This document shows positions 1,121 through 24,152 of a stretch of 29,628 bases of DNA, one piece after another. The stretch is from a virus. The position numbers and the translations under genes were made by a program. Within the stretch, counting starts at the first letter, position 1; each line of letters starts with the position of its first letter. Where the stretch lies: positions 1-29,628 of IMG/VR virus record IMGVR_UViG_3300030380_004077. One strand, written 5' to 3'. Under the pieces are notes generated by a model that saw only the letters and a list, made by a program, of their open reading frames with translations, searched no databases and was not told the origin of the DNA.

Positions 1121-1585
1121 TTATATTGTTTTATATTTTGTTTTATTATTTTCGTCTTTATATGCTAATAAACATCTATTTCTATTAGCATCTTCGTTCA
1201 CATAAGATACATGGACCCAATCCGGGTTATCAGAATTTCCAAATTCCCATATCATCTGATCGAACGATAAATTATTTTTTATGTATTCAAACATATCAGC
1301 ATTAGACATATAACCGTAATTATCATCAATATCCATCGCTCTACCTTCACAATGTTGTGATTTACTCGACCCACCGATTGCTTTATTTAATTCAGGTCCA
1401 CGATAGAATGAATTAATCTTTATAGGGCCGTTTACATGCTTTCTAAGAGGTTCAAATATTTTTTCTGCTAATAACTCCATATTAGTTAAATGAGCCTTTG
1501 TAGGGTCATTATTTAAACCTAGTCTTAAAGCAGTTATGCTATACACACCTTCTTTATATGTAACGTGTTCGCTTATGTTTTTCAT
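1121..1585 (-). CDS. Peptidase M15-like endolysin (cell-wall peptidase)
   Basis: This 154-aa protein carries the zinc-binding signature of the M15 (VanY/L-alanyl-D-glutamate peptidase) superfamily: S77-Q-H78-C-E-G-R-A-M-D85 supplies the first His and the Asp, and W123-V-H125-V-S supplies the second His. The preceding FYRGPELN (60-67) matches the conserved S-x-[YF]-R-x-x-x-x-N region of the family. W113-E114 lies where the catalytic acidic residue is expected. No signal peptide or TM segment is seen, so access to peptidoglycan would need a holin, and the candidate lies two genes upstream. A cytoplasmic endolysin is the simplest role; a virion-associated muralytic enzyme is possible. The start is supported by 4-nt spacing from the preceding stop. 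Confidence 0.85.
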   Translation of the reverse strand: MKNISEHVTYKEGVYSITALRLGLNNDPTKAHLTNMELLAEKIFEPLRKHVNGPIKINSFYRGPELNKAIGGSSKSQHCEGRAMDIDDNYGYMSNADMFEYIKNNLSFDQMIWEFGNSDNPDWVHVSYVNEDANRNRCLLAYKDENNKTKYKTI

Positions 1586-3070: not shown

Positions 3071-6000
3071 TTATTTTTTAATTGATGCTGATGAATATCT
3101 CTTTACTTTCTTTTTTCTTTTTCTTTTTGGTTTTTCGGGTTGTTCCATATTTAATTCCCAATCGTTCCAACCTAAAAGCAATGCTGCTCTTTGCATATAA
3201 TTTGCATCATCACTTACTGCTGCTTCTATATTTTGTGCTTTTCTTATAGCTCTATCTAATGGAAAGTTAAATACAGCTGAACTAAATTGTGCACCGGCAT
3301 TTAAAGCAGGATTGTCTAAGCTAGGTTCAAACATGTTCTGCTTAGTAATATATTTACGAGTATAAAAAGAGCTTCTTAATTTTGAAACTTTTGAATACAA
3401 TGGTGGTGAAATAGTCAAAGCTTGCAATTCTGGATCTTGTTTGTTAGTAGCTATAGCTTTAGCGGTATTTTTAACCGCAACTGCGGCATTTCCATATAAA
3501 CCGCTACCTCTTAACAATGAATCTAACATACCCTCTGCAACTTTTACAGTTCTTTCTTGTTGTTTATCGTCCTCTTCGTCTGAAAATGCAGATATAAATA
3601 ATGCTTTTTGTAAAGAGTTAAATATGATATTTTGAATCATACCATAATAAGTAATCTTAGTTATTTTTTCTCTAGGGTCACCTCTGCCAGCTATCAAGTC
3701 TTGTAGGTTTCTTTTTATAATTCTATTATACTGCATTGGTGTATTAGCAAACGCTAACATAAATCTACCTAGGCTACTCGCTTGTTGTTCAGATATTCTA
3801 TCTGGTCTACTTGATTGTTGCGTTTCTTCTGTAATTTTCATAAAATCAGTAAACGCTTTTTCTTTTGCTTCTTTTTCAGAAAGCCCTTGCTTTTTATAAG
3901 TATTTAATCTATTTCTGTACATAGATGCACCACCTGTTGCAATTGCAAAACTATCAGCCATTCTTGTTAATACAAATCCTTTATTAAGCATTAAAGCTAT
4001 AACGCCTTGTACGCCACCTTTTTGCTGTGCTAATGCTAGTTCACTTTCATTTATATTTATTCTATTACCTCCTCTTCTACTTTGTAAGTATTGTGAATTA
4101 AATAAAGTATTAAAATCTGTCCAATATTGTTTTTGATTTGCAAAAGCTTTAGCCGCTTGTAGCGGGTTATTATCTTTAAAATTTAAATAGTTTATATTAG
4201 ATATAGTCTGCAATACAGCTGACCTAGTATTTAAAAACATAATTGCCCCAACAGAACCATTAACCCAGTCATTCCATTTTTCAACTGTTTCATTAGCACC
4301 CCATTTTCTATTTGAACCAGACTTCATTCTATCTAATGTTGCTTTTAAAGTTTTGACATATTTAGCGCCATATGCCGCTTCTAATTTAAATAAATTTTCT
4401 TTACTAAATATTTGATCAACATTTTTTTGCCAAACTTCTAGGTGCTTTGTTCTTTTAGTACCGTTTAATAATTCAACCATATCCATTGCAATATTACCAG
4501 CAACCCAACTTTCTTTAGGTTTTGCATAACCATCACCTTTAGTTATTTTTATTATTTCATTAGCAAACGTGTGTAAGTCAGCATTTTTATTAACTTCTTT
4601 TAGTAATTCACTTTTAACTTTTTTACTTATACCTGGAATTTCATAACCTAATTTATTCCACATATATACTCTTACAGCTTGTTCTTTTGTAAATACTCCA
4701 CCTTCAGTAAATTCTTTTAATGTTTTAGGAACATTACTTAATTGTTTTTTTATTGCTTTAAAATCATTTTTTAATGCCATTGCTTCATTAGTCATGGATT
4801 CTACAGCTTTATTATATGGATCATATAATGTTTTTTCATAAAACTCTAATTGCTTTTCTCCCTGTTTTCCTCTAGCTAATGTTTTGTGCATTAATCCTGC
4901 AAAATCTTCAGCACCCACAGGTATAAAATAATCACCAAAATCTGTTTTAGCTTGTTTACCCCTAGCCATTGCTGTTGCGGCACCAAATACAGATTCTTTT
5001 TTAATACCAGTAGATTTTTCTAAAAACCCATTAAATTGTTTTGAAATATCTTGTTTTGAAAATTTAGCAGTTTGTTTTTCTTTTATTTCTTTGCTTTTAT
5101 TTTCTTTTTGATTTATAACTTCAACAATATCTGATGTTCTGCCTTTAGAAAATTTTAATGCTACTCTACTTTGTTCTACAGATATAGGCAATGTTTTATT
5201 AAATCTTTTTATACCCTCTGCTCTTGTTACTTTACTAGCAACCATATCAGCTATAATATTAGCAGCATTTTTTTGAACAGTTACACTGTTCCTCCAAACT
5301 CCAGATGGAACACCTAAACCATATTCTTCTGCTTTAGAAATAATTTTACCATTTTTATCAAATGTTTTTATAGCATAGGGATTAACAGTGTTATTGCCAT
5401 ACGCTCTATTAAAAAGCCTGGCATCTATTGAAGGAATTTCTACATTTTTTTCACCTTTCTTAATTTTGTTAATAGCGTCTTGTATAATAGGTGGTAATTC
5501 GTAAGCTGCTTCCCATCTTTTCTCTCTTCCTTCTACTACATAAGTGCCATCAACAATTTTTCTAGTAGTTTCGCTTATAGCAGCTTGTCTGTATGATTTT
5601 TTAATCCACTCTTTTACTTGATTTTTTCCAGCTTCACTCATCGTGGCCATGTCCTGGATTAGCTTGTTAAATGAACCATTTTGTAATAAGTGTTCTAATC
5701 TAGTGTCTACTTTTTTAGTTCCTAATTCATGAAGTATAACTTTAGATAATTGTCTGTTTATTCCTCCGCTAGCATTTTGATTATACAATAAATCCCAAGC
5801 AGCTCTACTATCAATTTTATGTAACTTAATAGCGTTTTCAACATACCAGTCTATAACTTCTTTAGTTAATTCTTCTTTAGTAAAATTCTTCTTACTCAAG
5901 GCTTCCATTATTTTTGTATTGCCTCTTTCTTGAGAAGATTTACCATGTTTTACAGCGTCAGTAAATTCTTGTTTACCAAAAGCTTCTTTTACTATATTAC

Positions 6001-9000
6001 TTAATTTTTCTACATTCCAAAGATACCCTGCTTCAAGAAGAGTGAGAGTATAACCACTTCCTGCGACACCAGATAAATCTTCTCTACTAACTCTATAATC
6101 ACCTGTTAAAAGTTTTTGAGTTATTTTTTTAGGATCTTTTGATGATCTTTTTTTACCTTCAAATACATCTGGGGTTTCTTTATTAACTTGTCCGCCTGTA
6201 GGAGCTGTATTAGTTTTACTAACTATTATTTCTAAAAATGCTGGGTCAATACCTGAATCTTTTTTAGCGGCTTTTTTAATTAAATTTGTATGAGCTTTAT
6301 TTTGTGCAGGTCCATCTTTATAAAAACCTTTAGGCCCCATCCCCTCTTCTCTTTTGCCTTTTGCTTTTTCATTCCCATTTTTAGAAAAGAAAACGTCGTG
6401 TTCTTTTTGTGCTTTTTGAGCTATTTTTTCTTTTTCAGTTACAGAATATAGTTTTTTCTTTTTCTGACCAATTACAGCGTCAATCATAGCTTGATTGAAC
6501 AATGTTTTAATAAGTTTTGCTTTTGTGTTTTGAACTTTAAAAAATTCTTTTATTTTATTAGGGGATTCTTTTCTAGTATCTAACCTTTCATAAACAGTAA
6601 CACCATTAGCTAGATTTTCAGTATAACTTGCTTTACCTTCTTTAATAGCTAGCTCCATCATTTTTGTTTTTGTTGCTCTACTATAACCCTGTGAACCAGG
6701 ATTTTCACTATTATAGCCTGGGCCTCTTGCTTTCTTTAAATATTTAGACTTAGGATTTGCATCTGCTTCTTTTACAACAAATAATGGTTCTCTACCTAAT
6801 CTTTGTGAAAACTTTTCAGCTTGAGTATAAAATGATAAAGGAAAGCTTTTTGGATCTTTTATAATAGACATTATCCCATTAAGAAAAGCTTCATACTTTC
6901 CATCAGTTCCAATATCTAGTTTTTCTTTAAATTCTTCAAATAATTCTGTTTCTTTAGCTATTTCTTTACTTAATTGTTTTCTAAAATCTTTACTATCTGG
7001 TGGTAATTTTAAATCTTTTATTAATTTTTCAGAAATTCTTATAGCAGCATCAATAAATTCCTCTCTTAATACCGGTCCGTCTTCCTCTGACAATATTCTT
7101 TTACCATCTACTTTAAGGTTTCTTTGTATTTTAGAAGGTGTGCCATTACTAATTTGTGATACTTCACTTCTATTACCAAAGCTTACATCAATAGCGTCTT
7201 CAATATTTTGTTTTTGATCGGCTATATCGGTTATTTCTCTCCCTCTTTCTTTTAATTCTTCTGCACTTGTTTTTTGTAAACTTTTATTATATTCTTCTAC
7301 AAGTTTAGTACCTATTCTTCTGCCTAATATATTATCTAAGTAAGTGGTAAATTCTTGTTTTTTACCTGTAACAGGATTTTCTGGTTTATAATTTTTAGTA
7401 ACACTTCCAAATTGATCTATTAATTTACCTTCTACTTCAGCATTATTTTTAATAGCATTAACAGGAACACCCTTTTTAGCAGCCCATCTACCTAAAGCGT
7501 CTTTACCTGCAGCTATATATTGATCTCTAAATTTTTTAGTTTCTTCTACTGTTAAAGTATTATTTTTATATTTTACAGCTAGCTCACTAATAGGGCTAGT
7601 CACTTTTACAGCTTGTTTTAAAACTCCCTTTTTGTCACTTATTACGGATTTATCAAAAACAACAATACTTTCAACTTTTCCAGGAACTACTTGAGCTCCA
7701 TCCTGGTATCTAGCGGCTAAAAATCCTTTTTCAGATAAAGCTTTTGTTACTTTATTCATTGCTTCCTTTCCTATATAAAAATCAAACCTAGAATCAATCA
7801 ATTCATATAAAGAACCTTCCGATGTATCAATCTTTAATTCCTTCATTGTATTAATTAAATCTTGTTCAGAAGCAACTTTATTTTCATTTATGTAAATGTT
7901 TTTTACTTTTCCTCTATTCATTTTAGCATAGGCACTAGCTTCTCTTTTATTAGTAGCTAAATAAATCAATCCAGTTCTTTTTCCTAGCTCATTAAAAGAT
8001 CGAGGGCTTGCATTATAAACTAATAGCTCTTTTGCTTTACCACCTTTTGAAAACTGAGCTTCACCAGTTTCAATATTTAATCCTGCTAATTCAACTTCTT
8101 TTTCAAATCCTCTAAATTTTTCTTCTAATGCAAGCTGTAAATCTTCTTTGTTTTCTCCTTTTGCTTTTTTAATTTTAGCTCTTAGTTCAGTAGCGCTAAA
8201 TTGAGTTTCTAAATCTTCAACTCTTTTTATTTGTTCTTTAAAGCTTTGCTCAATATTTCTATTCATTAATTGATTGCCAGGTCCCATATCTCTGTTTTCC
8301 TGTATCTTAGCTTTTAGTTTTGCTACGCCTGTTTTCTTATCTGATTCTAATTCTATTTTAAAATCTTTTGAAGCTTTGCCTTCACCTCTAAGACCTTTTA
8401 CAGGTGCATCTTTAGATATTGCTTTAGCCGCTTCGATACCTAATGTTTCATTTTTAGAATAGCTTTTTATTAAATTAAATAATTGCTGGCCAGTTTCAAC
8501 ACCAATTTCAAGATTTTCAAATCCTTTTTTTCTCATGCCAGGAATAAAATCTAATAAAGATTTTCCAACATTTTCTCTAAAAGCAATTTCGCCAGTGGAT
8601 ATAGCCTCAGATAACGATGTTAGATACTCCTCGTAATAATCTTCTTTAGCTTTTTCTTTTCCCTTTTCATCATACCTGTAGTTGTCATCTATTCTATCTT
8701 GTACAACTTTTCTTTGCTCGGGTGTTAACTCGTTGAGGACATCGTCAATTATTTTAATACCTTCTGTGGTTACTTTACCTTCTTCATTTTTTAAAACATC
8801 TCTTAAAACATGGTGTAATACTTCGTGTTTACCTGATGTTATCGTTCTTGTTTGTAAAGCACGTTGTTTATTTATAACCATTTTTTGTGTAACAGGGTTA
8901 TAAAAAGCTAACTCTCCTCTTACATCTTGTGATTTTAATCCTGTGCCGTTATATATTTTTTGAAATTCTTTTTCTGATTGAGCTTGTTTAAGACCTTTGG

Positions 9001-12000
9001 CTTGGCCTGTAACTTTTAATATTTCTTTTGTAAAAGCAATATCTTCTTGATATCTTTTGTTTGTATAATCTTCTAAAGATTTTTTGATTTTTTTATAAGT
9101 TTCTCCTTCGGTTAAATCTTTATACTCTTCTTTTAATTGTTTTAATTGTTCTTTTTCTGCGTCTGTTTTTTCTGATTTAAAATTAAGCAAATTTTGTTTT
9201 GAACTATTACTCCACATTTTAGATAAATGTTCGTATGATTCTTGCCTTTCTTTTGCATCATTAAAAGCAACCTTAAATTCACCACTATTTAATAATTCTT
9301 GTATTTGTTGCGCTTTTAGCTGTTGTAAATTCATTAACTCCATTCCATCTTTACCTTCCGCTATTTTTCTTCCTCTAGCGCCTAAAGAATTAAGAACATA
9401 TATAGGGTTTACATTTGAAAATTTTCTGCTTTCTTTTTCAGTTAACTCTTCGCCTTTTAATAATTTTTGTCCAACGCCATTAGCTTCTGCCTCATTTACA
9501 AAATAGTGTTCATTACCTTTTTTTCCTTGCGCAGACTCTATTGTTTTTTTAGCGGTAACTAAAGCTAATTTATTTTCTAAAATTAATTTATTTGTTATAG
9601 CTTCGCTTGCTTGCTCTTTCGCTTCTTGCTCTGTAATTTTACCATTTTTTTGGTTTGATTCAATTTCATTTAATTTATTTTGATAAGCTTTATTAATATC
9701 TTTTTCTAATGTATTTTGTTTATATCTTTTATCGCCCTCAGTAAATTTATCAATCCTATTATGGTCAATACTATAATAATTTGCAGCTCCTTCAGATTTA
9801 GCATCTCTACCTTTCATTCTAAGAACGTCTTCACGCATACTATGATAAAGATTATTAAAACCCTTATTAGTCATTGGAATATTTTTTGTACCGCTAAGCA
9901 AGGTCATTTTAACAAACTCTGCTGTCCAGCTTTGTAAAAGCTTTTGACCAAAATAATTAGAATAATTAGGATCATTTTTATCAACTTCTAAAAGCTTCAT
10001 AAACTCATCAGAGTCTGTTAATAATTGTGCAAAATGATAAACAGTAGAACCTGAAGCAGAACCCGCAATTACATTAGTGGGATTCATATTATAATGTATC
10101 ATTTTATGAGTTGCTGGCATAAAAAACTTAGACTTAGGATCCATTAATCTACCAACTATTGCTCCTCCTATTTTATTACCACCGCCAAGCGCTCCACCAA
10201 ACAATGCACTCTGCTGTATTTGTTCTCTATTTTCATCTTTTAATAATGATAAAGACACAAATAAAGCTGCTTCATCAACTGCACCTAAAGTAAATTTAGT
10301 TGCCCCTCTAGTAACAGGGTTACTATATAATACACCTCCTTTTAAAGCTTTATCAGCTTTATTTATTCCTTTAGAAATTGCATTACCAGAAACTTTTCTT
10401 AAAGCATATATTTCTGCTGCAAACTTAGCTAAATCCATAAACCCATCACCAATATACCTGGCATCACCAAATCCTTCATATAGTCTTTCATCTGCTTGTT
10501 TTTGGTCTACATATTTAAGGCTAGTATTCTTATTTATAGCTGCATCAAAGAACCTTACTGCTTCTTGTTTACTTTCTAATTTTTCATTAAGCCCTAATGT
10601 TCTACCAAGATTATCTACAATACCACCAAAAAACGTATCTCTATCTGATTTTATAGGGTCAATATTCATGGCTACAGCTTTGCCAAATGCTAAATATTCT
10701 TTTAAAGCATTATTATACTTATTAGCATTAGGGGTCGTACCGGCTATAGTAGTTAAATTTTCAGGCAATTCATCATTTTCAAAAATACTTTTTAAATTTC
10801 TTAAGTCTGCATTAAAGTTAGTATCATCACCAACAAAATCAAGTATATTAGACATATACTTTTGTCCAGGATATTTAAAAGTTTGATTTTTAAAATTTGT
10901 TTCACCTATTCTTAATATGTCTGTATGAGCTGCTTTAGCCGCTGCTTTAAGATTGGAATAAGCTTTTGATAAACCAGTGTTCATCATATCTACTTCAGTA
11001 GTTTCTAAAATTTCTGTAGATCTTTCTTGAATTTCTCTAGCGTCAGCCGAAGCATCGTCTAAAGAAACTACGTTGCCTTTATTAGGACCCGATACTTCAT
11101 ATAATTTTTCAGGCGCATTGTCCATATAAGCTTGAAAAATAGGATTGTTTTCTAATTCTTTTCTTTTTTCTGGAGATGCTCCTTCATAATTTTTACGTAA
11201 ATCTGTAAAGATTTTTTCATTGGAAGATAGGCGCTTATTATAAACATCTTGCTCAACATGCTTATTAAACTTGTTTTGATCCCCAAACTTTACTAAATCC
11301 TCGCTGTTTTGTTTATCCGTTGAAAGATTGTCATAAATTGCTCTAAGTGTATTTATATTAAAACTTTTAGTTTTATATTTTTCATTTCTTACTCCACTTC
11401 CTTCATTATCATATGTAACAACAAAACGATTACCATCTCCAACTTCATTTAAATTTTCTTCGCTAAAAATATATGGATCACTTAATGCCCCAACTGACAT
11501 TCCCGCAACTTTATGTAAAATACTATTACCACCAAACTTTACTCTAGAATAAGGTTCGCTATATAATTCAGCATCATCATCGCCAAAATTATATTTTGTA
11601 TCGCTAAATTCAGGTTTTCCTGCGCTAAGCGTTGCAATAGGGTTTGTTACTAAATCAAAACCTTTTTTAATATCACTAAAGTCTATAGTGCTGGCTTTGC
11701 CTGCTATTTTTTCTAAATAAGGATTTGAAACTTCTGAAAAACCTGGCATTAATTCTTGAAGTAATTTATTTCTATTTAATAATTCAGATGGGTTTTGTGT
11801 TGCTGTAAGTAAACTAGCATATTTTTCAGGATCAGCTGCTATTTTTTTAGCTATTTCATCATAATTAAAATCACTTCCTGATGTAGTAGCAATATGATTT
11901 CTAAGTTTTTTTTCGTCTTCTTCATTTAATTCTGAAATAACATTTTCATCTTCATTTCCAAATTTTTTTCTAATATTATTAATTTTTTCTAATTCCAAAG

Positions 12001-12187
12001 AACCAGGATCCGAAGTGGAACCCGTACTGCTTGTGCTTTCCGACCCCGCAATCGCAGTCTCCTGTACAGGGCCGTTTAACTTTCCCACATTATCGTTTGT
12101 AGCTGGCGCTAATTCATAACCTGGGTAGTCTGATAATTCTTCTTCAGGGACATTATAAAAATTCCCTTCCCACTTAATTCTAAACAT
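3071..12187 (-). CDS. Giant polyvalent virion protein with zincin metallopeptidase and ADP-ribosyltransferase-like domains
   Basis: The 3038-aa product follows two internal-virion-type genes. H1121-E1122-V-L-H1125 is a zincin active-site motif; E1186/E1187 in the next acidic helix (YYEEYLTSL) could be the third zinc ligand. Residues 1388-1518 look like a polyvalent-type ADP-ribosyltransferase: V-Y-N1392-A-S, then Y1409-L-A-T, A-S-A-Y-A-K, and E1506-S-I-V-V-F near the end; the usual first-strand His is Asn. F-S-K motifs lie at 1379-1381, 2346-2348 and 2376-2378. Residues about 2375-2870 (AEDFAGLMHKTL, NTRSAVLQTISN, EETQQSSRPDRIS, FANTPMQY) recall the conserved C-terminal block of marine phage giant proteins. 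A hydrophobic stretch (YGMIQNIIFNSLQKALFISA) near 2850 may meet membrane. Most of the rest is helical and Lys/Glu-rich without recognisable domains. Ejection with the genome is inferred from position and size. Confidence 0.8.
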   Translation of the reverse strand: MFRIKWEGNFYNVPEEELSDYPGYELAPATNDNVGKLNGPVQETAIAGSESTSSTGSTSDPGSLELEKINNIRKKFGNEDENVISELNEEDEKKLRNHIATTSGSDFNYDEIAKKIAADPEKYASLLTATQNPSELLNRNKLLQELMPGFSEVSNPYLEKIAGKASTIDFSDIKKGFDLVTNPIATLSAGKPEFSDTKYNFGDDDAELYSEPYSRVKFGGNSILHKVAGMSVGALSDPYIFSEENLNEVGDGNRFVVTYDNEGSGVRNEKYKTKSFNINTLRAIYDNLSTDKQNSEDLVKFGDQNKFNKHVEQDVYNKRLSSNEKIFTDLRKNYEGASPEKRKELENNPIFQAYMDNAPEKLYEVSGPNKGNVVSLDDASADAREIQERSTEILETTEVDMMNTGLSKAYSNLKAAAKAAHTDILRIGETNFKNQTFKYPGQKYMSNILDFVGDDTNFNADLRNLKSIFENDELPENLTTIAGTTPNANKYNNALKEYLAFGKAVAMNIDPIKSDRDTFFGGIVDNLGRTLGLNEKLESKQEAVRFFDAAINKNTSLKYVDQKQADERLYEGFGDARYIGDGFMDLAKFAAEIYALRKVSGNAISKGINKADKALKGGVLYSNPVTRGATKFTLGAVDEAALFVSLSLLKDENREQIQQSALFGGALGGGNKIGGAIVGRLMDPKSKFFMPATHKMIHYNMNPTNVIAGSASGSTVYHFAQLLTDSDEFMKLLEVDKNDPNYSNYFGQKLLQSWTAEFVKMTLLSGTKNIPMTNKGFNNLYHSMREDVLRMKGRDAKSEGAANYYSIDHNRIDKFTEGDKRYKQNTLEKDINKAYQNKLNEIESNQKNGKITEQEAKEQASEAITNKLILENKLALVTAKKTIESAQGKKGNEHYFVNEAEANGVGQKLLKGEELTEKESRKFSNVNPIYVLNSLGARGRKIAEGKDGMELMNLQQLKAQQIQELLNSGEFKVAFNDAKERQESYEHLSKMWSNSSKQNLLNFKSEKTDAEKEQLKQLKEEYKDLTEGETYKKIKKSLEDYTNKRYQEDIAFTKEILKVTGQAKGLKQAQSEKEFQKIYNGTGLKSQDVRGELAFYNPVTQKMVINKQRALQTRTITSGKHEVLHHVLRDVLKNEEGKVTTEGIKIIDDVLNELTPEQRKVVQDRIDDNYRYDEKGKEKAKEDYYEEYLTSLSEAISTGEIAFRENVGKSLLDFIPGMRKKGFENLEIGVETGQQLFNLIKSYSKNETLGIEAAKAISKDAPVKGLRGEGKASKDFKIELESDKKTGVAKLKAKIQENRDMGPGNQLMNRNIEQSFKEQIKRVEDLETQFSATELRAKIKKAKGENKEDLQLALEEKFRGFEKEVELAGLNIETGEAQFSKGGKAKELLVYNASPRSFNELGKRTGLIYLATNKREASAYAKMNRGKVKNIYINENKVASEQDLINTMKELKIDTSEGSLYELIDSRFDFYIGKEAMNKVTKALSEKGFLAARYQDGAQVVPGKVESIVVFDKSVISDKKGVLKQAVKVTSPISELAVKYKNNTLTVEETKKFRDQYIAAGKDALGRWAAKKGVPVNAIKNNAEVEGKLIDQFGSVTKNYKPENPVTGKKQEFTTYLDNILGRRIGTKLVEEYNKSLQKTSAEELKERGREITDIADQKQNIEDAIDVSFGNRSEVSQISNGTPSKIQRNLKVDGKRILSEEDGPVLREEFIDAAIRISEKLIKDLKLPPDSKDFRKQLSKEIAKETELFEEFKEKLDIGTDGKYEAFLNGIMSIIKDPKSFPLSFYTQAEKFSQRLGREPLFVVKEADANPKSKYLKKARGPGYNSENPGSQGYSRATKTKMMELAIKEGKASYTENLANGVTVYERLDTRKESPNKIKEFFKVQNTKAKLIKTLFNQAMIDAVIGQKKKKLYSVTEKEKIAQKAQKEHDVFFSKNGNEKAKGKREEGMGPKGFYKDGPAQNKAHTNLIKKAAKKDSGIDPAFLEIIVSKTNTAPTGGQVNKETPDVFEGKKRSSKDPKKITQKLLTGDYRVSREDLSGVAGSGYTLTLLEAGYLWNVEKLSNIVKEAFGKQEFTDAVKHGKSSQERGNTKIMEALSKKNFTKEELTKEVIDWYVENAIKLHKIDSRAAWDLLYNQNASGGINRQLSKVILHELGTKKVDTRLEHLLQNGSFNKLIQDMATMSEAGKNQVKEWIKKSYRQAAISETTRKIVDGTYVVEGREKRWEAAYELPPIIQDAINKIKKGEKNVEIPSIDARLFNRAYGNNTVNPYAIKTFDKNGKIISKAEEYGLGVPSGVWRNSVTVQKNAANIIADMVASKVTRAEGIKRFNKTLPISVEQSRVALKFSKGRTSDIVEVINQKENKSKEIKEKQTAKFSKQDISKQFNGFLEKSTGIKKESVFGAATAMARGKQAKTDFGDYFIPVGAEDFAGLMHKTLARGKQGEKQLEFYEKTLYDPYNKAVESMTNEAMALKNDFKAIKKQLSNVPKTLKEFTEGGVFTKEQAVRVYMWNKLGYEIPGISKKVKSELLKEVNKNADLHTFANEIIKITKGDGYAKPKESWVAGNIAMDMVELLNGTKRTKHLEVWQKNVDQIFSKENLFKLEAAYGAKYVKTLKATLDRMKSGSNRKWGANETVEKWNDWVNGSVGAIMFLNTRSAVLQTISNINYLNFKDNNPLQAAKAFANQKQYWTDFNTLFNSQYLQSRRGGNRININESELALAQQKGGVQGVIALMLNKGFVLTRMADSFAIATGGASMYRNRLNTYKKQGLSEKEAKEKAFTDFMKITEETQQSSRPDRISEQQASSLGRFMLAFANTPMQYNRIIKRNLQDLIAGRGDPREKITKITYYGMIQNIIFNSLQKALFISAFSDEEDDKQQERTVKVAEGMLDSLLRGSGLYGNAAVAVKNTAKAIATNKQDPELQALTISPPLYSKVSKLRSSFYTRKYITKQNMFEPSLDNPALNAGAQFSSAVFNFPLDRAIRKAQNIEAAVSDDANYMQRAALLLGWNDWELNMEQPEKPKRKRKKKVKRYSSASIKK

Positions 12188-12204: not shown

Positions 12205-14199
12205 TTAGGATTCTTTTCTATTATTTCTTCTTTCCTCAAGCTCTAGCATAGCTTTAAACCAATCTTGTCTATACAACTTAGGATATGATGTTGCACCGCC
12301 TTGCATAATATTTTGCATACCACCATATTGTTGTATTAAAGCGGCTCGTAACTCGCTTGTTTGAGGATTCTTAAGATAATTGGGGTTAGCTTCAAAATTT
12401 TGTTGTATACTTCGATATACCTGGTCTCTAAAGTAAGATGGATAAACAGCTTCTACATCTACATTTTGTGTAGCGGTTGTGCCGCCAATGTCTTTAAATA
12501 AGTTTTCCAAACCATTTAGCGTGAACACATTGTAATTATTAGTATTAACTTTTGGCGCGGCCACAACTCTTTCCGTTATAGGATTTCCATTTTCATCAAC
12601 TTCACCAGTTGGCTGATCTATAGTTTTAGCTTCTTGTTCGTATTCTATTTTTAATAAACCATTTGAAGATAATCGTGAACCTGTTATCGTTTTATTAACA
12701 GCATTACCATCTCCATCAAAAACTTTAATTTCATCAAAACCTAATTTATTTACATCAAGCTGCCTACTTCCTCCACCAGCACCAAGACCACTTGTGGATG
12801 CAGGAAGAACTAATGAAGGTAATTTTAATGTTTTATTTAATTGTTGTTGTGCAAACCTATTAGCAGTATTAACTTTAAACAAATCTTTATCAAATTGACC
12901 ACCAGTACCGCCAGTATCACCAGTAGGTGGAACATATGATTGGTTTAATAAACCTTTATCTACTATGCTTTTCTTAACACTTTCATGATATATTACAGCT
13001 TTTGTAATAGCTTGACCATCATGAATACTTTTTAATACTTGCTCAGGAGTCATTTTTTCCATTCCCACTATAGGCCTTGCCGCACCTGCTGTTTGAAGCA
13101 ATTTAAAATCATCACCTAATATAGCTTTAATTTTTTCAGTACCCATGTTCATATTGCTATTTAATATTAATTTTAGCTTACTATCATCAACATTTTGTAA
13201 AGTAGGCACTGTTCTTTTTAATATAGCTATTTCCTCTTGGCTAGTTAACTTGCCTTTTCCATGATTAGCATATAGTCCATTTAATTCACCAGTTATATCA
13301 GGCACTGATGTATATTCTCCATTTGCATTAGGTTGTATTGAAAGGCTATTTTCATTATAAAAGTTTGCGGTTCCTATTTGTTGTGAAATACCTGCGTCTA
13401 AATGATCTTCAGGGCTAAGAACTCGTGCATTAGGATCTGCATCAACTGTTGCTTTAGTTTTAACATTTGATGTTGACCTATTCATGTAGGTTTCAGCATT
13501 AGACCCCACAAGACTATGTCTTTCATCAATCCCCGCTCTCACTTGTTGAGTATTATTATTCATTATTTGAGATAACTCTGAAGAAGAATATGTATTTATA
13601 ATTTTACCGCTAGCATCTAAAATTTCAAGTTTTGAATTAAAACCTCTATCTATACCTTGCTCTTTATCTCCTTGTGAATAATAGGAAAAATTAGTTCTTA
13701 TTCTACCAGATTTTACAGCATTATGTATTTCTTCTAATTTACTATATTGAGCATCGCTCATGTCAGAATCTTTAGTAAGATTAAATTCTGGGTCATATAT
13801 TCTATTATACATTTCATTTAATGGAGTTACTTTATCAGTAAAATTATTTTGTAATTTTCTTAAATCCATATCTCCTAGCATTTGCCTGCCGCCTGAAAAT
13901 AATCCCGCTAAACCTTTACCACCTGGTTCTACTGCTAAAGCATCATCATAAAAATTTTTTAATGCAGATTCTACTTCTCCTCTGGTTTTTGTACTATTTG
14001 CTATAGCGGCTTCACCTTCTAATCGCATTTTTTCACCAGCTTCTTCAACCCCTTCTACGTATAGTTTATCAGCTTCAATTTTTTTCTTACCCATTTCTAT
14101 ACCTTCTTCAAAGCCTTTTTGAAATTTTTGTTCAAAAGCTTGAAAACCTGCCAAGTAATTTGGCGCGTTTATAAGTCTTGGATTTTCGTATGCTCCCAT
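12205..14199 (-). CDS. Probable internal virion protein (664 aa)
   Basis: The gene starts on the shared base of a TAATG with the Gly/Ala-rich protein upstream and ends 17 nt before the giant protein, so the three are likely co-translated and may act together. The N-terminus (about 15-100) is charged and helical (FQAFEQKFQKGFEEGIEMGK). The middle and C-terminal parts mix helices with Gly/Thr-rich linkers (PPTGDTGGTGGQ; GLGAGGGS). The end has a conserved-looking segment, A-V-Y-P-S-Y-F-R-D-Q-V-Y-R-S-I-Q-Q-N. No catalytic motif, signal peptide or TM helix is seen. Position between the small ejection-type protein and the giant protein, as in podoviral internal core gene sets, is the basis for the call. 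Confidence 0.55.
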   Translation of the reverse strand: MGAYENPRLINAPNYLAGFQAFEQKFQKGFEEGIEMGKKKIEADKLYVEGVEEAGEKMRLEGEAAIANSTKTRGEVESALKNFYDDALAVEPGGKGLAGLFSGGRQMLGDMDLRKLQNNFTDKVTPLNEMYNRIYDPEFNLTKDSDMSDAQYSKLEEIHNAVKSGRIRTNFSYYSQGDKEQGIDRGFNSKLEILDASGKIINTYSSSELSQIMNNNTQQVRAGIDERHSLVGSNAETYMNRSTSNVKTKATVDADPNARVLSPEDHLDAGISQQIGTANFYNENSLSIQPNANGEYTSVPDITGELNGLYANHGKGKLTSQEEIAILKRTVPTLQNVDDSKLKLILNSNMNMGTEKIKAILGDDFKLLQTAGAARPIVGMEKMTPEQVLKSIHDGQAITKAVIYHESVKKSIVDKGLLNQSYVPPTGDTGGTGGQFDKDLFKVNTANRFAQQQLNKTLKLPSLVLPASTSGLGAGGGSRQLDVNKLGFDEIKVFDGDGNAVNKTITGSRLSSNGLLKIEYEQEAKTIDQPTGEVDENGNPITERVVAAPKVNTNNYNVFTLNGLENLFKDIGGTTATQNVDVEAVYPSYFRDQVYRSIQQNFEANPNYLKNPQTSELRAALIQQYGGMQNIMQGGATSYPKLYRQDWFKAMLELEERRNNRKES

Positions 14200-14930
14200 T
14201 ATTGTGTATTTAAATATTGTTGATATTGTAGTTGACCTTGAACTGCACCTAATGCGCCACCTATATTTCCGAGCGCCCCTCCTAATAAAGAACTAGATTG
14301 GCCTTGTAGCTGATTTGCTTGCATCATTGCATTTTGTTGTAACCCAGCTAGTCTATTCAATTTCATCATATCTCTTTTTTCTTGCGCCCCGAACATGAAT
14401 GCTTTACCCTGCGCTTGTGCTAGTTGTACCCTACTAGCTTCTCTTAATTGTAATTGTTGCATTTGCATTTCACCTTGCGCTCTTAATCTTGTATTCTGTG
14501 CTTCTTGTTTTGCAATATCCGCGGCAATATTAGCTTTACTCCTTGATGCTGCTTGTGCTAATGCTGTAGCACCACCCGCACCTGCGCCGGTTGCCCTTAA
14601 GGTATCTAATGTTGTAGCTAAAGATAAATCTTGCTCTCTCGCTCTCATTTCGGATGCGGCAGTCGCAACTTGTAAATTTTCAAATGGATTTGAAACCATT
14701 GAACTTAAATCTTTAACGTCAGCATACGGATTTATTACATCTTGTCTGCCACGTTCTAATGACGTAATTTGTCTATCTAGCCTTGCAGCTTCTGCTCTTT
14801 GTCTACGCATTGCTTTTCTAGCAGATGATGCACCAATAAGGCCACCAATCAGGCTAACACCCATACCTATTAAAGAACCTCCGCCTCCTGCGAGAAATTT
14901 ACCAAATCCTGATTCTGCGAAATCGTTCAT
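14199..14930 (-). CDS. Gly/Ala/Gln-rich internal virion (DNA ejection) protein
   Basis: The 243-aa protein opens with a Gly-rich hydrophobic segment (FLAGGGGSLIGMGVSLIGGL, 12-31). A long charged helix follows (SARKAMRRQRAEAARLDRQI), then the motif NPYADVKDLSSMVSNPFENL (67-86), an Ala/Gly hinge (RATGAGAGGATALAQAA) and a long Gln/Ala coiled coil (to about 200). A second Gly-rich hydrophobic stretch (SSLLGGALGNIGGALGAV) lies near the C-terminus. I recall this architecture from internal proteins of marine podoviruses. It resembles T7 gp14/P22 gp7-class ejection proteins in kind, with two membrane-active ends and a helical core, but homology is not shown. Spacing is 6 nt from the tail gene. Confidence 0.65.
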   Translation of the reverse strand: MNDFAESGFGKFLAGGGGSLIGMGVSLIGGLIGASSARKAMRRQRAEAARLDRQITSLERGRQDVINPYADVKDLSSMVSNPFENLQVATAASEMRAREQDLSLATTLDTLRATGAGAGGATALAQAASRSKANIAADIAKQEAQNTRLRAQGEMQMQQLQLREASRVQLAQAQGKAFMFGAQEKRDMMKLNRLAGLQQNAMMQANQLQGQSSSLLGGALGNIGGALGAVQGQLQYQQYLNTQ

Positions 14931-14936
14931 AATTTT

Positions 14937-16214
14937 TTATTTTGATGATATTACAACCTCGCTTAAGATTGTAAATAATTCTTGTTTACTATTTTCTTTT
15001 GTTTCTAGCGTAGTATGTAAATACATTCCTTTTACACCTGATACTCCTGGTCCAAATAATATTTCATCTTCTTGAGCATCTATTGAAGCATTTTGTAATA
15101 CTGAAAAATACTTACCTTCTTTTTTCATAAACATTGATGGTAATATATTTATAAATTCATTATTGTTATTGTATCCAAAATTATACTCATATTTAGCTAT
15201 ATTTTCTGCTAAATCAGAATGACTAGATTCATCTAAATCTGTTTTAATATTATTAGCAGACCACCCTGTGGTACCTTCATAACCTAATGTTTTAAAAGTT
15301 TTAACTACTGATCCATCTATGTTCATTATTGCAGTTATACTAGATGCAGCTGCTGGTTGACTATAAAATACATTGTAATTTGTATTTTTATAATGAACAT
15401 ATATATTACCTTTATTGAAAGTATAAAATTTATTATTTAAAGTAAAACCGTTTTCAGGGTAATAACTATAAAAGCTAGTCCAACCTTTTGATGTTTCATC
15501 AAATGCAACGGTATTACCAGTTTGTTTTAAATGAAGAATATATTGATCTTTTACATTATCATACATTCCAATTAAATTCGTATTTGTTTTGAGATTATCT
15601 TTAAAGTAATCTCTCATGCCATAATTAGATATCTCAGTTAAACCATCTCTTGTTAATCTTAAAACAACACCTCGTTTTTTATCTGTAAAGTATTTTCTAT
15701 TTCCTTTAACAGCAAAACTTTCTGGATTTAAACTTATACCATATATACCTAAAAATGTTCTTACTTGGCCTATAACTATATTTGAAGCTGTGCTTAATGG
15801 TTGCCCCTCAGCTGTAAATATAAAATCTTTATTTATACCAGCGGCATTACATTTATCTTCTTGTAATATAAATAACTCTCTATCTTCCGCATGCAACTTT
15901 TGAATTGAACCGTCTGTTATATCTACGGCTTTAGTAATATTATCACCAATAGAAAATTGATTTAATTCATTAACACCAGTTTTAGCGTTATATATACCAG
16001 AATATATCATTGCATTTTTTCTATTAACAACAGTATATTCATCATTAACTAAATAAGCTCTAACCCCTTGATCCATAGCAGGCTCATTAAATCCACCTTT
16101 TATTCTGGATTCTTCTATATAAAATCTTTTTTGATTAGCATTACTTGTTTCTTCAAATTCAGCAGATTTTACATATATAGAGTTAAAATAACCTATTTCT
16201 TTTATTTCTGGCAT
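14937..16214 (-). CDS. Tail tubular/stabilisation protein, C-terminal-half-like (beta-propeller type)
   Basis: This 425-aa protein has motifs that I recall from the C-terminal portion of a large podoviral tail protein of marine phages: FYIEESRIKGGFNEP (near 32-46), NRKNAMIYSGIYNAKTGVNE, SIQKLHAEDRELFILQEDK, NPESFAVKGNRKYFTDKKRG, LTRDGLTEISNYGMRDYF and a W-T-S-F-Y-S-Y. Repeated short strands with Y/F-rich turns suit a beta-propeller or ring component. In the relatives I remember this part is fused downstream of the module carried by the 1223-aa neighbour; here it is a separate gene after a 33-nt gap. It starts at MPEIKE. The exact role (P22 gp10-like hub or tail tube B) is inferred. Confidence 0.65.
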   Translation of the reverse strand: MPEIKEIGYFNSIYVKSAEFEETSNANQKRFYIEESRIKGGFNEPAMDQGVRAYLVNDEYTVVNRKNAMIYSGIYNAKTGVNELNQFSIGDNITKAVDITDGSIQKLHAEDRELFILQEDKCNAAGINKDFIFTAEGQPLSTASNIVIGQVRTFLGIYGISLNPESFAVKGNRKYFTDKKRGVVLRLTRDGLTEISNYGMRDYFKDNLKTNTNLIGMYDNVKDQYILHLKQTGNTVAFDETSKGWTSFYSYYPENGFTLNNKFYTFNKGNIYVHYKNTNYNVFYSQPAAASSITAIMNIDGSVVKTFKTLGYEGTTGWSANNIKTDLDESSHSDLAENIAKYEYNFGYNNNNEFINILPSMFMKKEGKYFSVLQNASIDAQEDEILFGPGVSGVKGMYLHTTLETKENSKQELFTILSEVVISSK

Positions 16215-16247
16215 AATATTTATATTATTACATATTTTATGAGTTCT

Positions 16248-19200
16248 CTAACAATTATTAGGTTGGTCAACAAATTGTATTTTACCACCGCTAATTATTG
16301 TATGGAACCCATCAGACAGTGGATTTGTTATAACAGCCCCAGCACCAACAGACGTAGTTAACGCAGCATTTGAAAATACCTCATCGTTTACTTGTGGAGT
16401 TTGTGATGTTGAATTATTGCTAGTTGGTCTTTTAATATAAAAGTTTTGAAATGGTGAATTAGCATTTATAGTGCCACAAACACCTACTTCCCCGCCGCTA
16501 GCAAATAAAAAATCACCCCAAAACCATCCGCCTATTGTAACTTCGCAAAAAGCATCATCTGTATTAGATTGTGTAACACCACTATTATCATTAATCTCAG
16601 TAGTTATTTTATAAACTTTTCCAATTTCACTATCGGGAAAATTATGATTATTAGCGCTAACCGCTCCCGTACTACTATTAATACTAAATTTATTTTTATG
16701 TGTATTTGTGGTTTCATTAGCTCCTGTTGGATCAAATGTAACTTGCTTTATACTATGCGTTATGTTTATAGTGTTTTGTGTTGTATCTGAACTTCCATTT
16801 ACCGCTGATGTTGGGCTAAAAATTACACCCGATGAATTAAAATGTGTATGAGTCGCGGCCGCAGGCAATACTAGATCTGGCACTGAGTTTGTTAAATTTA
16901 CCGTAAAATCTTGTTCAACCGATTGATTAGCTGAATTAACAACTTTTATTCTTACTGTATATATATGACCGGATGTGCCATGATAAAATTTATTATTAGT
17001 AACTTTAATTTTAAAATTATTTCCATCTTCAGAAATACCAAAATGGCTATCCCCAGTTGTTTGTAAAGGAGGTGAAGTATTGCCATCTTCTAATACGCTT
17101 ACAATAGAATATGTTAAGCCGCTAGTAATTGCGCTGTTGTTTTGATCAAGCGTTTTTAGATTAGGCCCAATTGCTTGCCCGTTTGCACCTGCGTCTAACC
17201 CTTCAGCAAATGAAGTAGTGGTTGAGTCATCGTCAAATTTTATACTTGCTGGTTGAGCACTAGATCCGGCTAATATTTCAGTGTTTAATGTTGATATTAA
17301 ACCACAAGTTACAGTTTCATAATATAAATCTAATGAGCTTTCAAATGGTTTTGTTTCCCATACTGAAAACCCGGTAGTTCCACGAACTCCTAATGGTGAT
17401 TGGTTGTTTGCAGCAACAGGACCAATTGTAACACCAAACCCATTTGGTAATTCTGCTAATAGTGGATTTTTCTTATAATTATAAAAAGTTCGGTATGTAT
17501 GACCGCTTTCTTCTTGGGTACCGGTTGTACTAGCGCCAATAATGAAAAACTCTAAACCATGATCTATAGCTTTGCCAACGCTTATTATATCTACAAGTGG
17601 AAAATCGGACATTATATCTGCTAAACCACTATTAACTTTTGGAAATAAGCTTACATCAGTAGGAAATACAGAATTATCGTCTACAGATTCTTGCGTTGTA
17701 TCTCTAGGTACTTTATTTATGTTATCTCCGTGTAAAACTAGCCACGTTCTTTTATCTTCATTATCAAAAAACACTGCGCTATGAGCAGACTGAGTTTGAG
17801 CGTCAGGTATTCCACTTTTAGCTTCTGGTGCATATATATTATGATACTCTTGTTCATTTTGTTTTACAACAACCTTATAAGAATACCACCCAGTTGGATT
17901 ATTAAAACTATGTAACACAGAATTATTATCCCTATCAGATGATGGAATTTTTTTATTAAAACTTATTTCCATTACCTCCCCAGCAAAATTTGAATCTGTT
18001 TCACTAGTGTTTTTTGCTTTTACTTTTAATAAAGATTTGTTTACATCATCAGACAAAAATACTGGTGATTGTCTTCCGTATCTATCAATTAATACAATTC
18101 CAACCTGATATGTTCTTCTTGTTTTAATACTATGATAAGGATATTGTTTATCAAATAAAAATTCACTATCATTTTTAACACCTATTCCTAAATGATAATC
18201 AAAAGAATAATTTTCATCGCTATTATATGGTTTATTATTTGGATTTTCTTGATAATTGCCATAAACAATTCTATTACCAATTAATTCTTGTGCTTTTGCT
18301 TTTACAGGAACATTGTCATAAACTCTGGTTAATTGTCTTTCTGGTAATGTTTTATAAGGCAAAGATCCTTTATAAGTATATTCATATATTTTATCTGTTC
18401 CAACGCTACCATCTGTTATATCTAATTGCGCTAAGCTTTTTATATCAGGTCTATTAGATTCTTTTATTAATATTTCAATTTTATTAATTTCAAAATCTTT
18501 AGTAGGCTCGTCAGAAGGAAATTCAATTTGTAAGTTTACATGCGCAACATCATTAATAAAACTAGCTAACTCTGTGCTTTCTGCCGCTTCTTTTCGTTGA
18601 GTAGCCGTTAATCCAATACCATCATTTGTAGGTAATGATGAATTAGCTGTTTTTGTTGAGCCATTACCAGCGTAAGCCACATTGTATGTTTGAGGTATAA
18701 AACAATGCTGTGTAAATGGCGATATCAATGAATACTCACCATCTTTAAATTTAAATCTATATGCAAACCTAACAAACTTATCTCTTAATTTATCATTTTG
18801 ATTTAAAAAAGTTAATACTGTGTTTTGAGTTATATTTGTAATATTTGTATCAGAAGTAATTGTTAAGCCATCGGCACTTACCGCATCTACTTTACCTAAA
18901 AATGTAGAACCGTTATATATTTCTTGTCCAACATGAATGTTATGTTCAGGATCACTATCAGCAACAGTAGAACTTATCACTATAGTTTTTGTTGCAGTAG
19001 TTATTGCAGTTCCTAGTTTAGCTTGAACTTTTAATCTTTGCATGCCAGAATGGTTTGTGCCTGCAACTTGCCTTAAAACTTTAGGTGCTGTATATGGATA
19101 ATACTTTGCAACTGATATTTTATCTTCATTATCATAATAAGTATTATCTGCAATAGCGGTTATAGCGTTTATTTTTCTTGGCTGGTTTTTATTATCAGTC

Positions 19201-19919
19201 CAAAATAATAAATCATCAATTATGTTTACACCTGTTATTAAAAAATCAGAACTAAATTTTAAAAAATTAGTTGTATTATTTATTAATGGTATAGGCGCTG
19301 TATTTCCTTCTTGATAATAATATATATTATCTTTATGACCTGTATTACCTTTTACAAAATAATATATTGTATTTATTCCGCTTTTTGCTTCGCTATCGGC
19401 AAAATAACCAATAACAGTACCAACATCTTCGGTTATTAATAAGTCTTCTTCTCTTAATGTTAACACAACACTTGCTGAACCACCAATTGCAGGTGTACCA
19501 GTGTCTTTGCTTATTGTTATAGTATCACCAACTTTATACCCGGATGATGTTCCGCTAAATGTAACTTTAGTTACTGTTCCCCCGTCTATTATAATATTAA
19601 CGTTTCCGCCAACACCATTCCCGTTTGTTGTAAATCCAGAAGTAACATTAGGAACACCACTATATCCTGCGCCTGCAGCATTAGTTCCGTCTGTTGTGTT
19701 TGTAGTAACAACACCTATAGTTCTTTCACCAGATTTAAATGCACCTGTTGTATAATTTAATTTATTACCTAAAATATTTTGCACAGTACCTACATCAGAA
19801 CCTTCAGACTTGCTTATATGTATATTTTGTGCATCAAAATATTCTCCGTTTTTTACTAAACGAGCATCAAGGTCTTTGTTCATTTTACCTTGTAAAAAAG
19901 TATTTTTAGCTTCTGGCAT
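16248..19919 (-). CDS. Large tail protein (P22 gp10/stabilisation-type) with inserted beta domains
   Basis: This 1223-aa protein has the N-terminal signature NTFLQGKMNKDLDARLVKNG, then EYFDAQNIHISKSEGSDVGT and VQNILGN (to about 51), which I know from tail hub/stabilisation proteins of marine and Bacteroidota podoviruses. Residues about 80-160 are a Gly-rich insert (GAGYSGVP, IIDGGTVTKVTFSG, GYKVGDTITI) like modules found in phage appendages. The main body contains LPERQLTRVYDNVPVKAKAQ, DRYGRQSPVF and WYSYKVVVKQNEQEYHNIY. Residues about 932-1012 and 1060-1130 look like cadherin/Ig-like domains (YTVRIKVVNSANQSVEQDFTV). The C-terminus ends in a free Cys after a short domain (VNDEVFSNAALTTSVGAGAV). 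It starts 5 nt after the preceding stop. Confidence 0.7.
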   Translation of the reverse strand: MPEAKNTFLQGKMNKDLDARLVKNGEYFDAQNIHISKSEGSDVGTVQNILGNKLNYTTGAFKSGERTIGVVTTNTTDGTNAAGAGYSGVPNVTSGFTTNGNGVGGNVNIIIDGGTVTKVTFSGTSSGYKVGDTITISKDTGTPAIGGSASVVLTLREEDLLITEDVGTVIGYFADSEAKSGINTIYYFVKGNTGHKDNIYYYQEGNTAPIPLINNTTNFLKFSSDFLITGVNIIDDLLFWTDNKNQPRKINAITAIADNTYYDNEDKISVAKYYPYTAPKVLRQVAGTNHSGMQRLKVQAKLGTAITTATKTIVISSTVADSDPEHNIHVGQEIYNGSTFLGKVDAVSADGLTITSDTNITNITQNTVLTFLNQNDKLRDKFVRFAYRFKFKDGEYSLISPFTQHCFIPQTYNVAYAGNGSTKTANSSLPTNDGIGLTATQRKEAAESTELASFINDVAHVNLQIEFPSDEPTKDFEINKIEILIKESNRPDIKSLAQLDITDGSVGTDKIYEYTYKGSLPYKTLPERQLTRVYDNVPVKAKAQELIGNRIVYGNYQENPNNKPYNSDENYSFDYHLGIGVKNDSEFLFDKQYPYHSIKTRRTYQVGIVLIDRYGRQSPVFLSDDVNKSLLKVKAKNTSETDSNFAGEVMEISFNKKIPSSDRDNNSVLHSFNNPTGWYSYKVVVKQNEQEYHNIYAPEAKSGIPDAQTQSAHSAVFFDNEDKRTWLVLHGDNINKVPRDTTQESVDDNSVFPTDVSLFPKVNSGLADIMSDFPLVDIISVGKAIDHGLEFFIIGASTTGTQEESGHTYRTFYNYKKNPLLAELPNGFGVTIGPVAANNQSPLGVRGTTGFSVWETKPFESSLDLYYETVTCGLISTLNTEILAGSSAQPASIKFDDDSTTTSFAEGLDAGANGQAIGPNLKTLDQNNSAITSGLTYSIVSVLEDGNTSPPLQTTGDSHFGISEDGNNFKIKVTNNKFYHGTSGHIYTVRIKVVNSANQSVEQDFTVNLTNSVPDLVLPAAATHTHFNSSGVIFSPTSAVNGSSDTTQNTINITHSIKQVTFDPTGANETTNTHKNKFSINSSTGAVSANNHNFPDSEIGKVYKITTEINDNSGVTQSNTDDAFCEVTIGGWFWGDFLFASGGEVGVCGTINANSPFQNFYIKRPTSNNSTSQTPQVNDEVFSNAALTTSVGAGAVITNPLSDGFHTIISGGKIQFVDQPNNC

Positions 19920-22685: not shown

Positions 22686-24152
22686 TTAAGAATCAAATCT
22701 GATAAAGTTGTTTGCAGCTTGTACTACTAAACATCTTTCTGATAGATAGTGAATTTCCATTTTATCGAAACTTGAACTAGTTGGTCCACCAACTGATCCA
22801 GTAATCCATGTTTTCATTTTTCTATCATCAGCTTGAGAAGCTCTATATCTTACGTGCAAGAATGGTCTTCTTACATTTTGAGCTAATTGCTGATCATACA
22901 CTGAACTACTACCTGCTGGAAGTAATACTCCACTTAAACCACCTACGTGACCTCTTGTAGAAGCATCATTTAAATATTTCCAGTCAGTTTTGTAGAAGTC
23001 ATAAGACCCTCTTCTAAATCCTGTAAATCCAAGATTTAACGCCATGTCTTCAGAGTTATTAAATATTCCATAAGCAGTACCACCTTGAGTACCTGCAGAA
23101 AGACCCGCTAAGAAATCATCGATAAATAAGTTTGCATCTCTGTTTAGATATAACATATTTTCTTCGATAGCCCCTTGCTTATCTAATTCTTTTAACAATG
23201 CATCAAACTCGTCTAATGATTCAGCATTTGTTTCAGAACCACCTTGACCATCAAATTGATTTGTTGCTACCATACCTCTGTTGCCAATAGCTTGTAATAA
23301 ACCTTCAGAACCATCAATGTTATTACCAGTTAAATCGTGTAATTGCGAATCAGCAACTCCAGATCCTGTTGCTACTTTTTCCGCTTCAACCATTGTCATT
23401 TCTAAATAGTCTTCAAATCTAGCTCTTGTATCGCCAGAAGCTTTTAAGTACCATAAATAACCATTTTCACCTGACTCACCAGATACTTCAACCCACCCAA
23501 TTTGAGCTGTATCAGAACCGTTGATTGCAAAGTGATCTTTAATTATCATTGGTTTGTTTGTAAATGTTTTGAATTGAGGCTCTATAGATTCAACCATAGT
23601 GTCTGTTCCTTTTTGAAATTCAGAACCATAAACAAAAAACTTAATAGCTTTACTACCAGTTGAAGAAGTACCAGCTAAATCATTAACGTTTTCAGCGCCG
23701 TAAGGTGCGATTGTTAATGTATCAGTTGCAGCTTCTGCACCTACTTTAACCAAAGCTTTAAATACTACACCCTCTACAACAGCGACTACTGTAGCGTTTT
23801 TTCTAACTACATGAGCTTCTGTTACGTTTGGTGCATCAATATTTTTTATAGCCGTGATTACTCCGTCTTCTACATTAATAGTACCATTGTACGCTAAATG
23901 TAGTCTACCTTGCTCAGACCAAATAACTTGATCAGATTGCATAGGCATTTCAGCACCAGCCATAGCTAAAAATCCAGCTATTGTTCTGTTACCATATCTT
24001 TCAACTTCCTTTTCATATAATTCAGGAAGATATTGTTTAGCCCACCCGTCATTTTGAATATCAAGGTAATTACCCGTCAATGTCATTTTTGATTGGGCAG
24101 GGTTAACTATACTGCCAGCCACTGGGCCAGCAAAATTTACGTTTGTTGCCAT
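22686..24152 (-). CDS. Major capsid protein
   Basis: This 488-aa protein has the N-terminal segment WAKQYLPELYEKEVERYGNR (37-56), then GFLAMAGAEMPM and IWSEQGRLHLAY (77-88). I recognise this pattern from coat proteins of marine and Bacteroidota podoviruses. A beta-rich insertion (about 100-160, VVAVVEGVVFKALVKVGAE) precedes the main body (ARFEDYLEMTMVEAEKVATG; SLDEFDALLKELDKQGAIEE). The C-terminus contains KMEIHYLSERCLVVQAANNF. Length and order (portal, scaffold-like protein, this gene) fit a HK97-fold capsid protein; the fold is inferred, not shown. It starts 22 nt after the preceding stop with only an A-rich leader, and a strong hairpin follows its stop. Confidence 0.8.
   Translation of the reverse strand: MATNVNFAGPVAGSIVNPAQSKMTLTGNYLDIQNDGWAKQYLPELYEKEVERYGNRTIAGFLAMAGAEMPMQSDQVIWSEQGRLHLAYNGTINVEDGVITAIKNIDAPNVTEAHVVRKNATVVAVVEGVVFKALVKVGAEAATDTLTIAPYGAENVNDLAGTSSTGSKAIKFFVYGSEFQKGTDTMVESIEPQFKTFTNKPMIIKDHFAINGSDTAQIGWVEVSGESGENGYLWYLKASGDTRARFEDYLEMTMVEAEKVATGSGVADSQLHDLTGNNIDGSEGLLQAIGNRGMVATNQFDGQGGSETNAESLDEFDALLKELDKQGAIEENMLYLNRDANLFIDDFLAGLSAGTQGGTAYGIFNNSEDMALNLGFTGFRRGSYDFYKTDWKYLNDASTRGHVGGLSGVLLPAGSSSVYDQQLAQNVRRPFLHVRYRASQADDRKMKTWITGSVGGPTSSSFDKMEIHYLSERCLVVQAANNFIRFDS

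Follow-up and report, generated by a model that had tools for sequence, protein, structure and literature searches.

A giant polyvalent-type phage protein combines a zincin domain with a recently exchanged, probably non-canonical ADP-ribosyltransferase-like cassette

The window, which is the whole 29.6-kb virus record analysed here, encodes a giant protein of 3038 residues. We consider it probable that this is a polyvalent-type protein of the virion module, in which a zincin cuts the giant itself, the payload region is exchangeable and an ADP-ribosyltransferase (ART)-like cassette is likely non-canonical. The polyvalent concept, of modular proteins proposed to be packaged in the particle and delivered into the host together with the DNA, and the hypothesis of self-processing by the MPTase were put forward by Iyer et al. 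2017 (PMC5512222), who had already reported large phage proteins in which zincin and ART domains are fused. Like those proteins, the giant is a multidomain protein encoded near virion genes, with a zincin-like MPTase, their commonest hub domain, and an ART-PolyVal-like domain. These two domains and a helical C-terminal module are present in one polypeptide, the gene directly follows the TerL-portal-MCP-ring-muzzle block, and the C-terminal model matches annotated polyvalent proteins in BFVD. The initial annotation, which had assigned the protein to the polyvalent type with a true zincin and an ART-like domain, is supported in this respect.

The giant gene terminates a podovirus head-tail module

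The giant (P0001) is a single ORF of 3038 codons on the minus strand. It covers 30.8% of the window, confirming the earlier estimate of about 31%. Its position after the muzzle genes fits the proposed assignment as a late gene. The TerL, portal, capsid, ring and muzzle genes lie upstream on the same strand, and the giant closes the module:

27819..29627, minus strand: terminase large subunit, truncated by the contig end (phrog_6681)
25401..27818, minus strand: portal (phrog_6547, E=3e-147)
22686..24152, minus strand: virion structural protein at the major capsid protein position (phrog_13704, E=5.5e-97; the Calle_1 homologue is annotated MCP)
16248..19919, minus strand: muzzle-type virion structural protein, N-terminal part (phrog_14478, E=3e-52)
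14937..16214, minus strand: muzzle-protein C-terminal part (PF25731, PF25729, phrog_14478)
14199..14930, minus strand: 243-aa protein with a hydrophobic Gly-rich N-terminus, homologue of a Gundel_1 'virion structural protein' (E=6e-7)
12205..14199, minus strand: 664-aa protein directly upstream of the giant, in the place of phi40:1 gp100 (MS/MS-annotated)
3071..12187, minus strand: giant polyvalent-type protein, 3038 aa, matching in position the giants of MW202828, elemoF gp18, phi40:1 gp101 and others

No sequence match was found for the 664-aa protein. The muzzle-type protein appears to be split between two genes (window 14937-19919; 1223 and 425 aa, both phrog_14478), while it is a single long gene in phi38:1 and elemoF. 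Downstream of the giant lie a Peptidase_M15 endolysin-like gene and a gene for a DUF5872 protein (window 1121-1585 and 2251-2529).

The window portal is nearest to that of MW202828 (53%), followed by Maribacter phage Panino (46%), Elemovirus (42%) and Cellulophaga phages. These relatives suggest a virus related to phages of marine flavobacteria, and probably a flavobacterial host. Giants end the corresponding module in MW202828 (3859 aa), Panino (1829 aa), elemoF (gp18, 3694 aa), phi38:1/phi40:1 (gp101, 1691 aa) and phi18:3 (gp123, 1935 aa); in the somewhat rearranged genome of Tenacibaculum phage Gundel_1, gp074 (2482 aa) takes this position. The window giant thus stands at a module position equivalent to that of phi40:1 gp101, phi18:3 gp123, Elemovirus gp18 and Gundel_1 gp074. 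A similar locus is known from crassvirus PhicrAss001, where the large cargo proteins gp45-gp50 are encoded beside the ring and muzzle genes (PMC10172136), and the window has crAss muzzle Pfam matches. The crassvirus giants, however, are related to RNA polymerase, a feature not detected in the window giant.

The C-terminal block is common to a large family of giants

When P0001 was scanned at full length, Pfam and PHROGs matches did not rise above chance level; the domain matches reported below were obtained by searching slices. The C-terminal part is the most widely conserved:

3188..4975, minus strand: conserved all-helical C-terminal block, residues 2405-3000 (82/82 relatives; AF2 pLDDT 77.5; BFVD matches)

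The block has 366 matches among viral contigs. We fetched 80 loci out of these 366 relatives and compared 82 giants. Every one of them contains the block at about residues 2400-3000, in agreement with the conserved C-terminus described previously. By simple BLAST, the zincin region was found in about 39 of the 82, and the remaining regions in few.

Foldseek comparison of the C-terminal model with BFVD returned many matches at E<1e-3 to proteins named large polyvalent protein, PolyVal ADP-ribosyltransferase or ART-PolyVal-like, with partial TM-scores of 0.27-0.58. The matches reach E=1e-13 beyond close homologues, align to the C-termini of polyvalent proteins and also include the Gundel_1 structural protein. 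Judged by the model, the block is structurally the C-terminus of large polyvalent proteins, whose C-terminal fold it shares. Unlike them (PMC5512222), it has no match to Pfam LPD38; this profile (PF18857) matched nothing in the window and, elsewhere, only the Panino giant (E=1.8e-5). The DNA methylase-helicase or RNAP domains of polyvalent proteins were likewise not detected in the window giant by the Pfam scan.

The zincin domain retains an intact metal site

8450..9091, minus strand: zincin-like metallopeptidase domain, residues 1033-1246 (family HMM, AF2 model, VIA-align)
8813..8827, minus strand: HEVLH, residues 1121-1125, two zinc-ligand His and the catalytic Glu (H, E and H invariant in alignment A7)
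8627..8629, minus strand: E1187 in DYYEEYLT, predicted third zinc ligand (invariant in alignment A7)

The HEVLH motif is located exactly where it had been placed by the initial annotation. Shuffled versions of P0001 contain on average 0.011 HExxH motifs. Among the 70 near-full-length relatives (≥1800 aa), 59 carry HExxH, compared to 0.32 expected from shuffles, and the family HMM of the domain matches 66. A combined alignment misaligned the short ART rows included in it, and alignment A7 was used instead. In its 32 rows H1121, E1122, H1125 and E1187 are invariant, within the family pattern ...ivIN...HExxH...EExLT.... The AF2 model of this part has a pLDDT of about 90 over most of the domain. 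By recurrence and motif the zincin assignment of the initial annotation is solid, and alignment and model together show an intact metal site. For the fold, the best zincin-type matches of the model in VIA-align are the N-terminal and catalytic domains of anthrax lethal factor, with Z-scores of 5.0-5.7 over about 160 residues, below the caution line of Z 8. These modest scores are consistent with the link between polyvalent MPTases and lethal factor drawn by Iyer et al. (PMC5512222).

Searching the PDB by sequence with the slices for zincin and ART yielded no meaningful match, and Foldseek found no significant PDB match for the whole zincin and ART model or for the C-terminal model. A scan of viral contigs with the zincin alignment returned only one known locus. 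The giant of MW202828 (L006) has two HExxH motifs, at residues 1615 and 2500. We also considered FS[KR] linkers as protease sites; they occur 5 times in P0001 against 1.3 expected, most relatives have no clear excess, and the idea was dropped.

It could be argued that the role of the giant, inside the virion or in an ejectosome, is purely mechanical and that its zincin and ART-like domains are non-catalytic structural leftovers. The C-terminus is indeed fixed and helical, its model gives a single weak VIA match to the PhiM1 ejectosome (Z 4.2), and the ART residues are degenerate. The zincin sites are also degenerate in some relatives: seven zincin-bearing giants have no standard HExxH, the first His being replaced by E or Q in six, with an HExxxH-like motif in one, so that proteolysis by the zincin is not indispensable. 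However, the catalytic residues are retained in 59 of the 70 relatives despite a sequence identity of only about 20-30% for most alignment rows, a pattern indicative of selection for a metal-dependent activity. We therefore regard a purely mechanical role as unlikely, and an active zincin that processes the giant as the better reading.

A comparable arrangement is found in the virion RNA polymerase of coliphage N4 (gp50), a giant ejected protein in which an HExxH domain precedes a large C-terminal domain of mostly helical structure (PMC12633501). The window giant resembles it in combining an HExxH domain with a helical C-terminus. It differs in that no polymerase domain was detected, and the RNA polymerase DxDxD motif is absent from P0001.

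The ART-like module is a rare cassette with replaced catalytic residues

8045..8365, minus strand: linker, residues 1275-1381, ending ...EAQFSK (kept in L003, absent from L002)
7613..8044, minus strand: ART-like cassette, residues 1382-1525 (PF18760; same left edge in the comparisons with L003 and L016)

The Pfam family ART-PolyVal (PF18760, Tox-ART-HYD2 clade) matches a slice of the giant at residues 1404-1513 with E=4.4e-5 and 24.7 bits, below its gathering score of 31.2 bits. The module proposed at residues 1388-1518 thus appears real at the superfamily level; its edges at the DNA level lie at about 1382 and 1525.

Within the family the cassette is rare. Just two of about 80 giants were found to have it: L094, at 57% identity, and L016, where the match is partial (about 87%) and lies at a contig end; a search of viral contigs with the ART alignment returned only L094/L099 and L016/L100, and the same search of genome contigs found nothing. 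A similar module occurs, more weakly, in the unrelated phage C75C1. The L094 copy is homologous but has no PF18760 match, and by BLAST L094 shares only this module and the C-terminal block with the window giant. Compared with L002, the window carries an extra 750 bp, flanked by DNA that is 91.0% identical on one side and 86.8% on the other. L003 has no cassette and retains the linker up to residue 1381, and the DNA similarity to L016 begins at the same base where the L003 match stops. Because L002 and L003 lack the module at sharp DNA edges and L016 and L094 share it, we conclude that it is a rare, sharply bounded accessory cassette that was recently exchanged. The pairing of zincin and ART as the hallmark, as in the initial annotation, is not supported, with the ART in only two of about 80 relatives and absent from a 91%-identical one. 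In L016 (7981-8221), the cassette abuts the middle of the C-terminal block at the contig end, which reflects either an insertion or a chimeric assembly.

The active-site triad given for polyvalent ARTs is H-Y-D (PMC5512222). In an alignment with the prototype RPP1, partly read by eye, it becomes N-Y-L in the window cassette: Asn replaces the strand-1 His, the middle Tyr is retained, and Leu stands for the Asp of GYDG. This alignment also places a Glu ahead of the last strand. The L094 copy reads N-F-G with Gln before the last strand, while RPP1 by the same reading is H-F-D. The AF2 model of the region, built from only two sequences, is mostly below pLDDT 60. Slice searches and structure predictions, of the kind called for earlier, yielded a PF18760 match and a confident zincin model, but no confident model of the ART. 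Since the strand-1 His and strand-5 Asp are replaced, in departure from the polyvalent ARTs (PMC5512222), the cassette is probably not a canonical ADP-ribosyltransferase; on these residues, a binding role or non-canonical chemistry appears more likely.

This bears on the proposal that the giant delivers an active host-directed protease together with an active ADP-ribosyltransferase at genome entry. In its favour, the cassette matches ART-PolyVal, keeps the middle-strand Tyr and has a Glu before the last strand, and polyvalent ARTs were proposed to modify host proteins in the manner of injected T4 Alt (PMC5512222). Against it, the canonical H and D are N and L in the window, the L094 copy has diverged at the same sites, and the cassette is rare and recently exchanged. 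Such delivery seems unlikely to us, and the delivered ADP-ribosylating activity of the initial annotation is not supported; a self-processing zincin with an exchangeable payload is more likely.

The region between zincin and C-terminus exchanges whole modules

7088..7570, minus strand: residues 1540-1700, no family found (the L003 counterpart is weakly sigma70 region 2-like)

The stretch between the zincin and the C-terminus is a payload region that shows exchange of whole modules. The window giant carries the ART-like cassette, and relatives carry HAD-phosphatase-like and zeta-kinase-like modules. A HAD-like motif, VFDFDDTLA, lies upstream of the C-terminal block in 26 of the 70 giants (for example at ORF residue 1963 of L043) and is absent in the window lineage. 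The giant at L005:5852-14425, a distant relative in the zincin region, combines a HAD-type DxD motif with a P-loop kinase-like insertion, and two other giants of the family match Pfam AAA_33 and Zeta_toxin. In the L003 giant (G002:C1:3655-3783), a weak sigma70 region 2 match (E=5.4e-4, below the cut-off) replaces window residues of about 1540-1700; the window giant itself has no match to this family.

A more far-reaching interpretation is that the payload region is a dedicated exchange zone, with swaps at fixed linker joints and interchangeable phage-delivered cargo, and that the cassette, with N-Y-E in place of H-Y-D, represents a new non-canonical ART subfamily. We find this doubtful.

Virion association is suggested by linked homology

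9188..12187, minus strand: N-terminal region (residues 1-1000), of a type common to 12 relatives and exchangeable with at least one other

The records of phi40:1 gp101 and phi18:3 gp123 state 'annotation based on experimental MS/MS proteomics analysis'. The giants of the phi40:1 type (phi38:1) and of phi18:3 are shorter than the window giant and have no HExxH, and the N-terminus of the window giant is of another type, with no detectable homology to the N-terminal core of these Cellulophaga phage giants. The connection runs through Gundel_1 gp074 ('structural protein'), which shares the C-terminal block with the window giant (E=9e-12) and whose N-terminal region matches phi38:1 gp101 (E=2.5e-17) and phi18:3 gp123 (E=4.6e-15). 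HExxH is also present in Gundel gp074 and elemoF gp18. An N-terminal profile built from the giants of cultured phages matches 22 members of the family, the best at 3e-28, and both of the other ART carriers (L016 and L094) are among them.

Synteny and linked homology thus suggest that the window giant resides in the virion; we infer its packaging only indirectly, because its N-terminus is of another type than that of the MS/MS-annotated proteins. This difference could also mean that the giant is a late non-virion protein that is never ejected and instead works in the producing cell, with head maturation and superinfection exclusion as examples of its role. But the N-terminal type of the MS/MS-annotated virion proteins occurs in family members that share this C-terminus, and the gene position is conserved; we think this scenario very improbable.

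Discussion

In the favoured model of a self-cleaving virion-module protein, the giant would be made with the virion proteins, would most likely be packed with the ejection proteins and would enter the host ahead of or with the DNA, with the fixed all-helical C-terminal block probably serving packaging or ejection. It may be threaded through portal and tail, as has been proposed for crassvirus cargo; on homology, delivery at genome entry is plausible. The most likely substrate of the zincin would be the giant, cut into functional pieces either at maturation or once inside the host, following the model of Iyer et al. 2017, and the payload modules would act in the host.

Polyvalent proteins with zincin and ART domains are already known. 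What is added here is a well-resolved case of module exchange and a probably degenerate ART, a caution that an ART-PolyVal-like match need not mean an active enzyme. The C-terminal block ties many giants of uncultured viruses (366 matches) to virion proteins from Cellulophaga and Tenacibaculum phages in culture. Through this link, laboratory phage-host pairs could offer a test of the polyvalent model, with its packaging, self-cleavage by the zincin and delivery of exchangeable enzymes.
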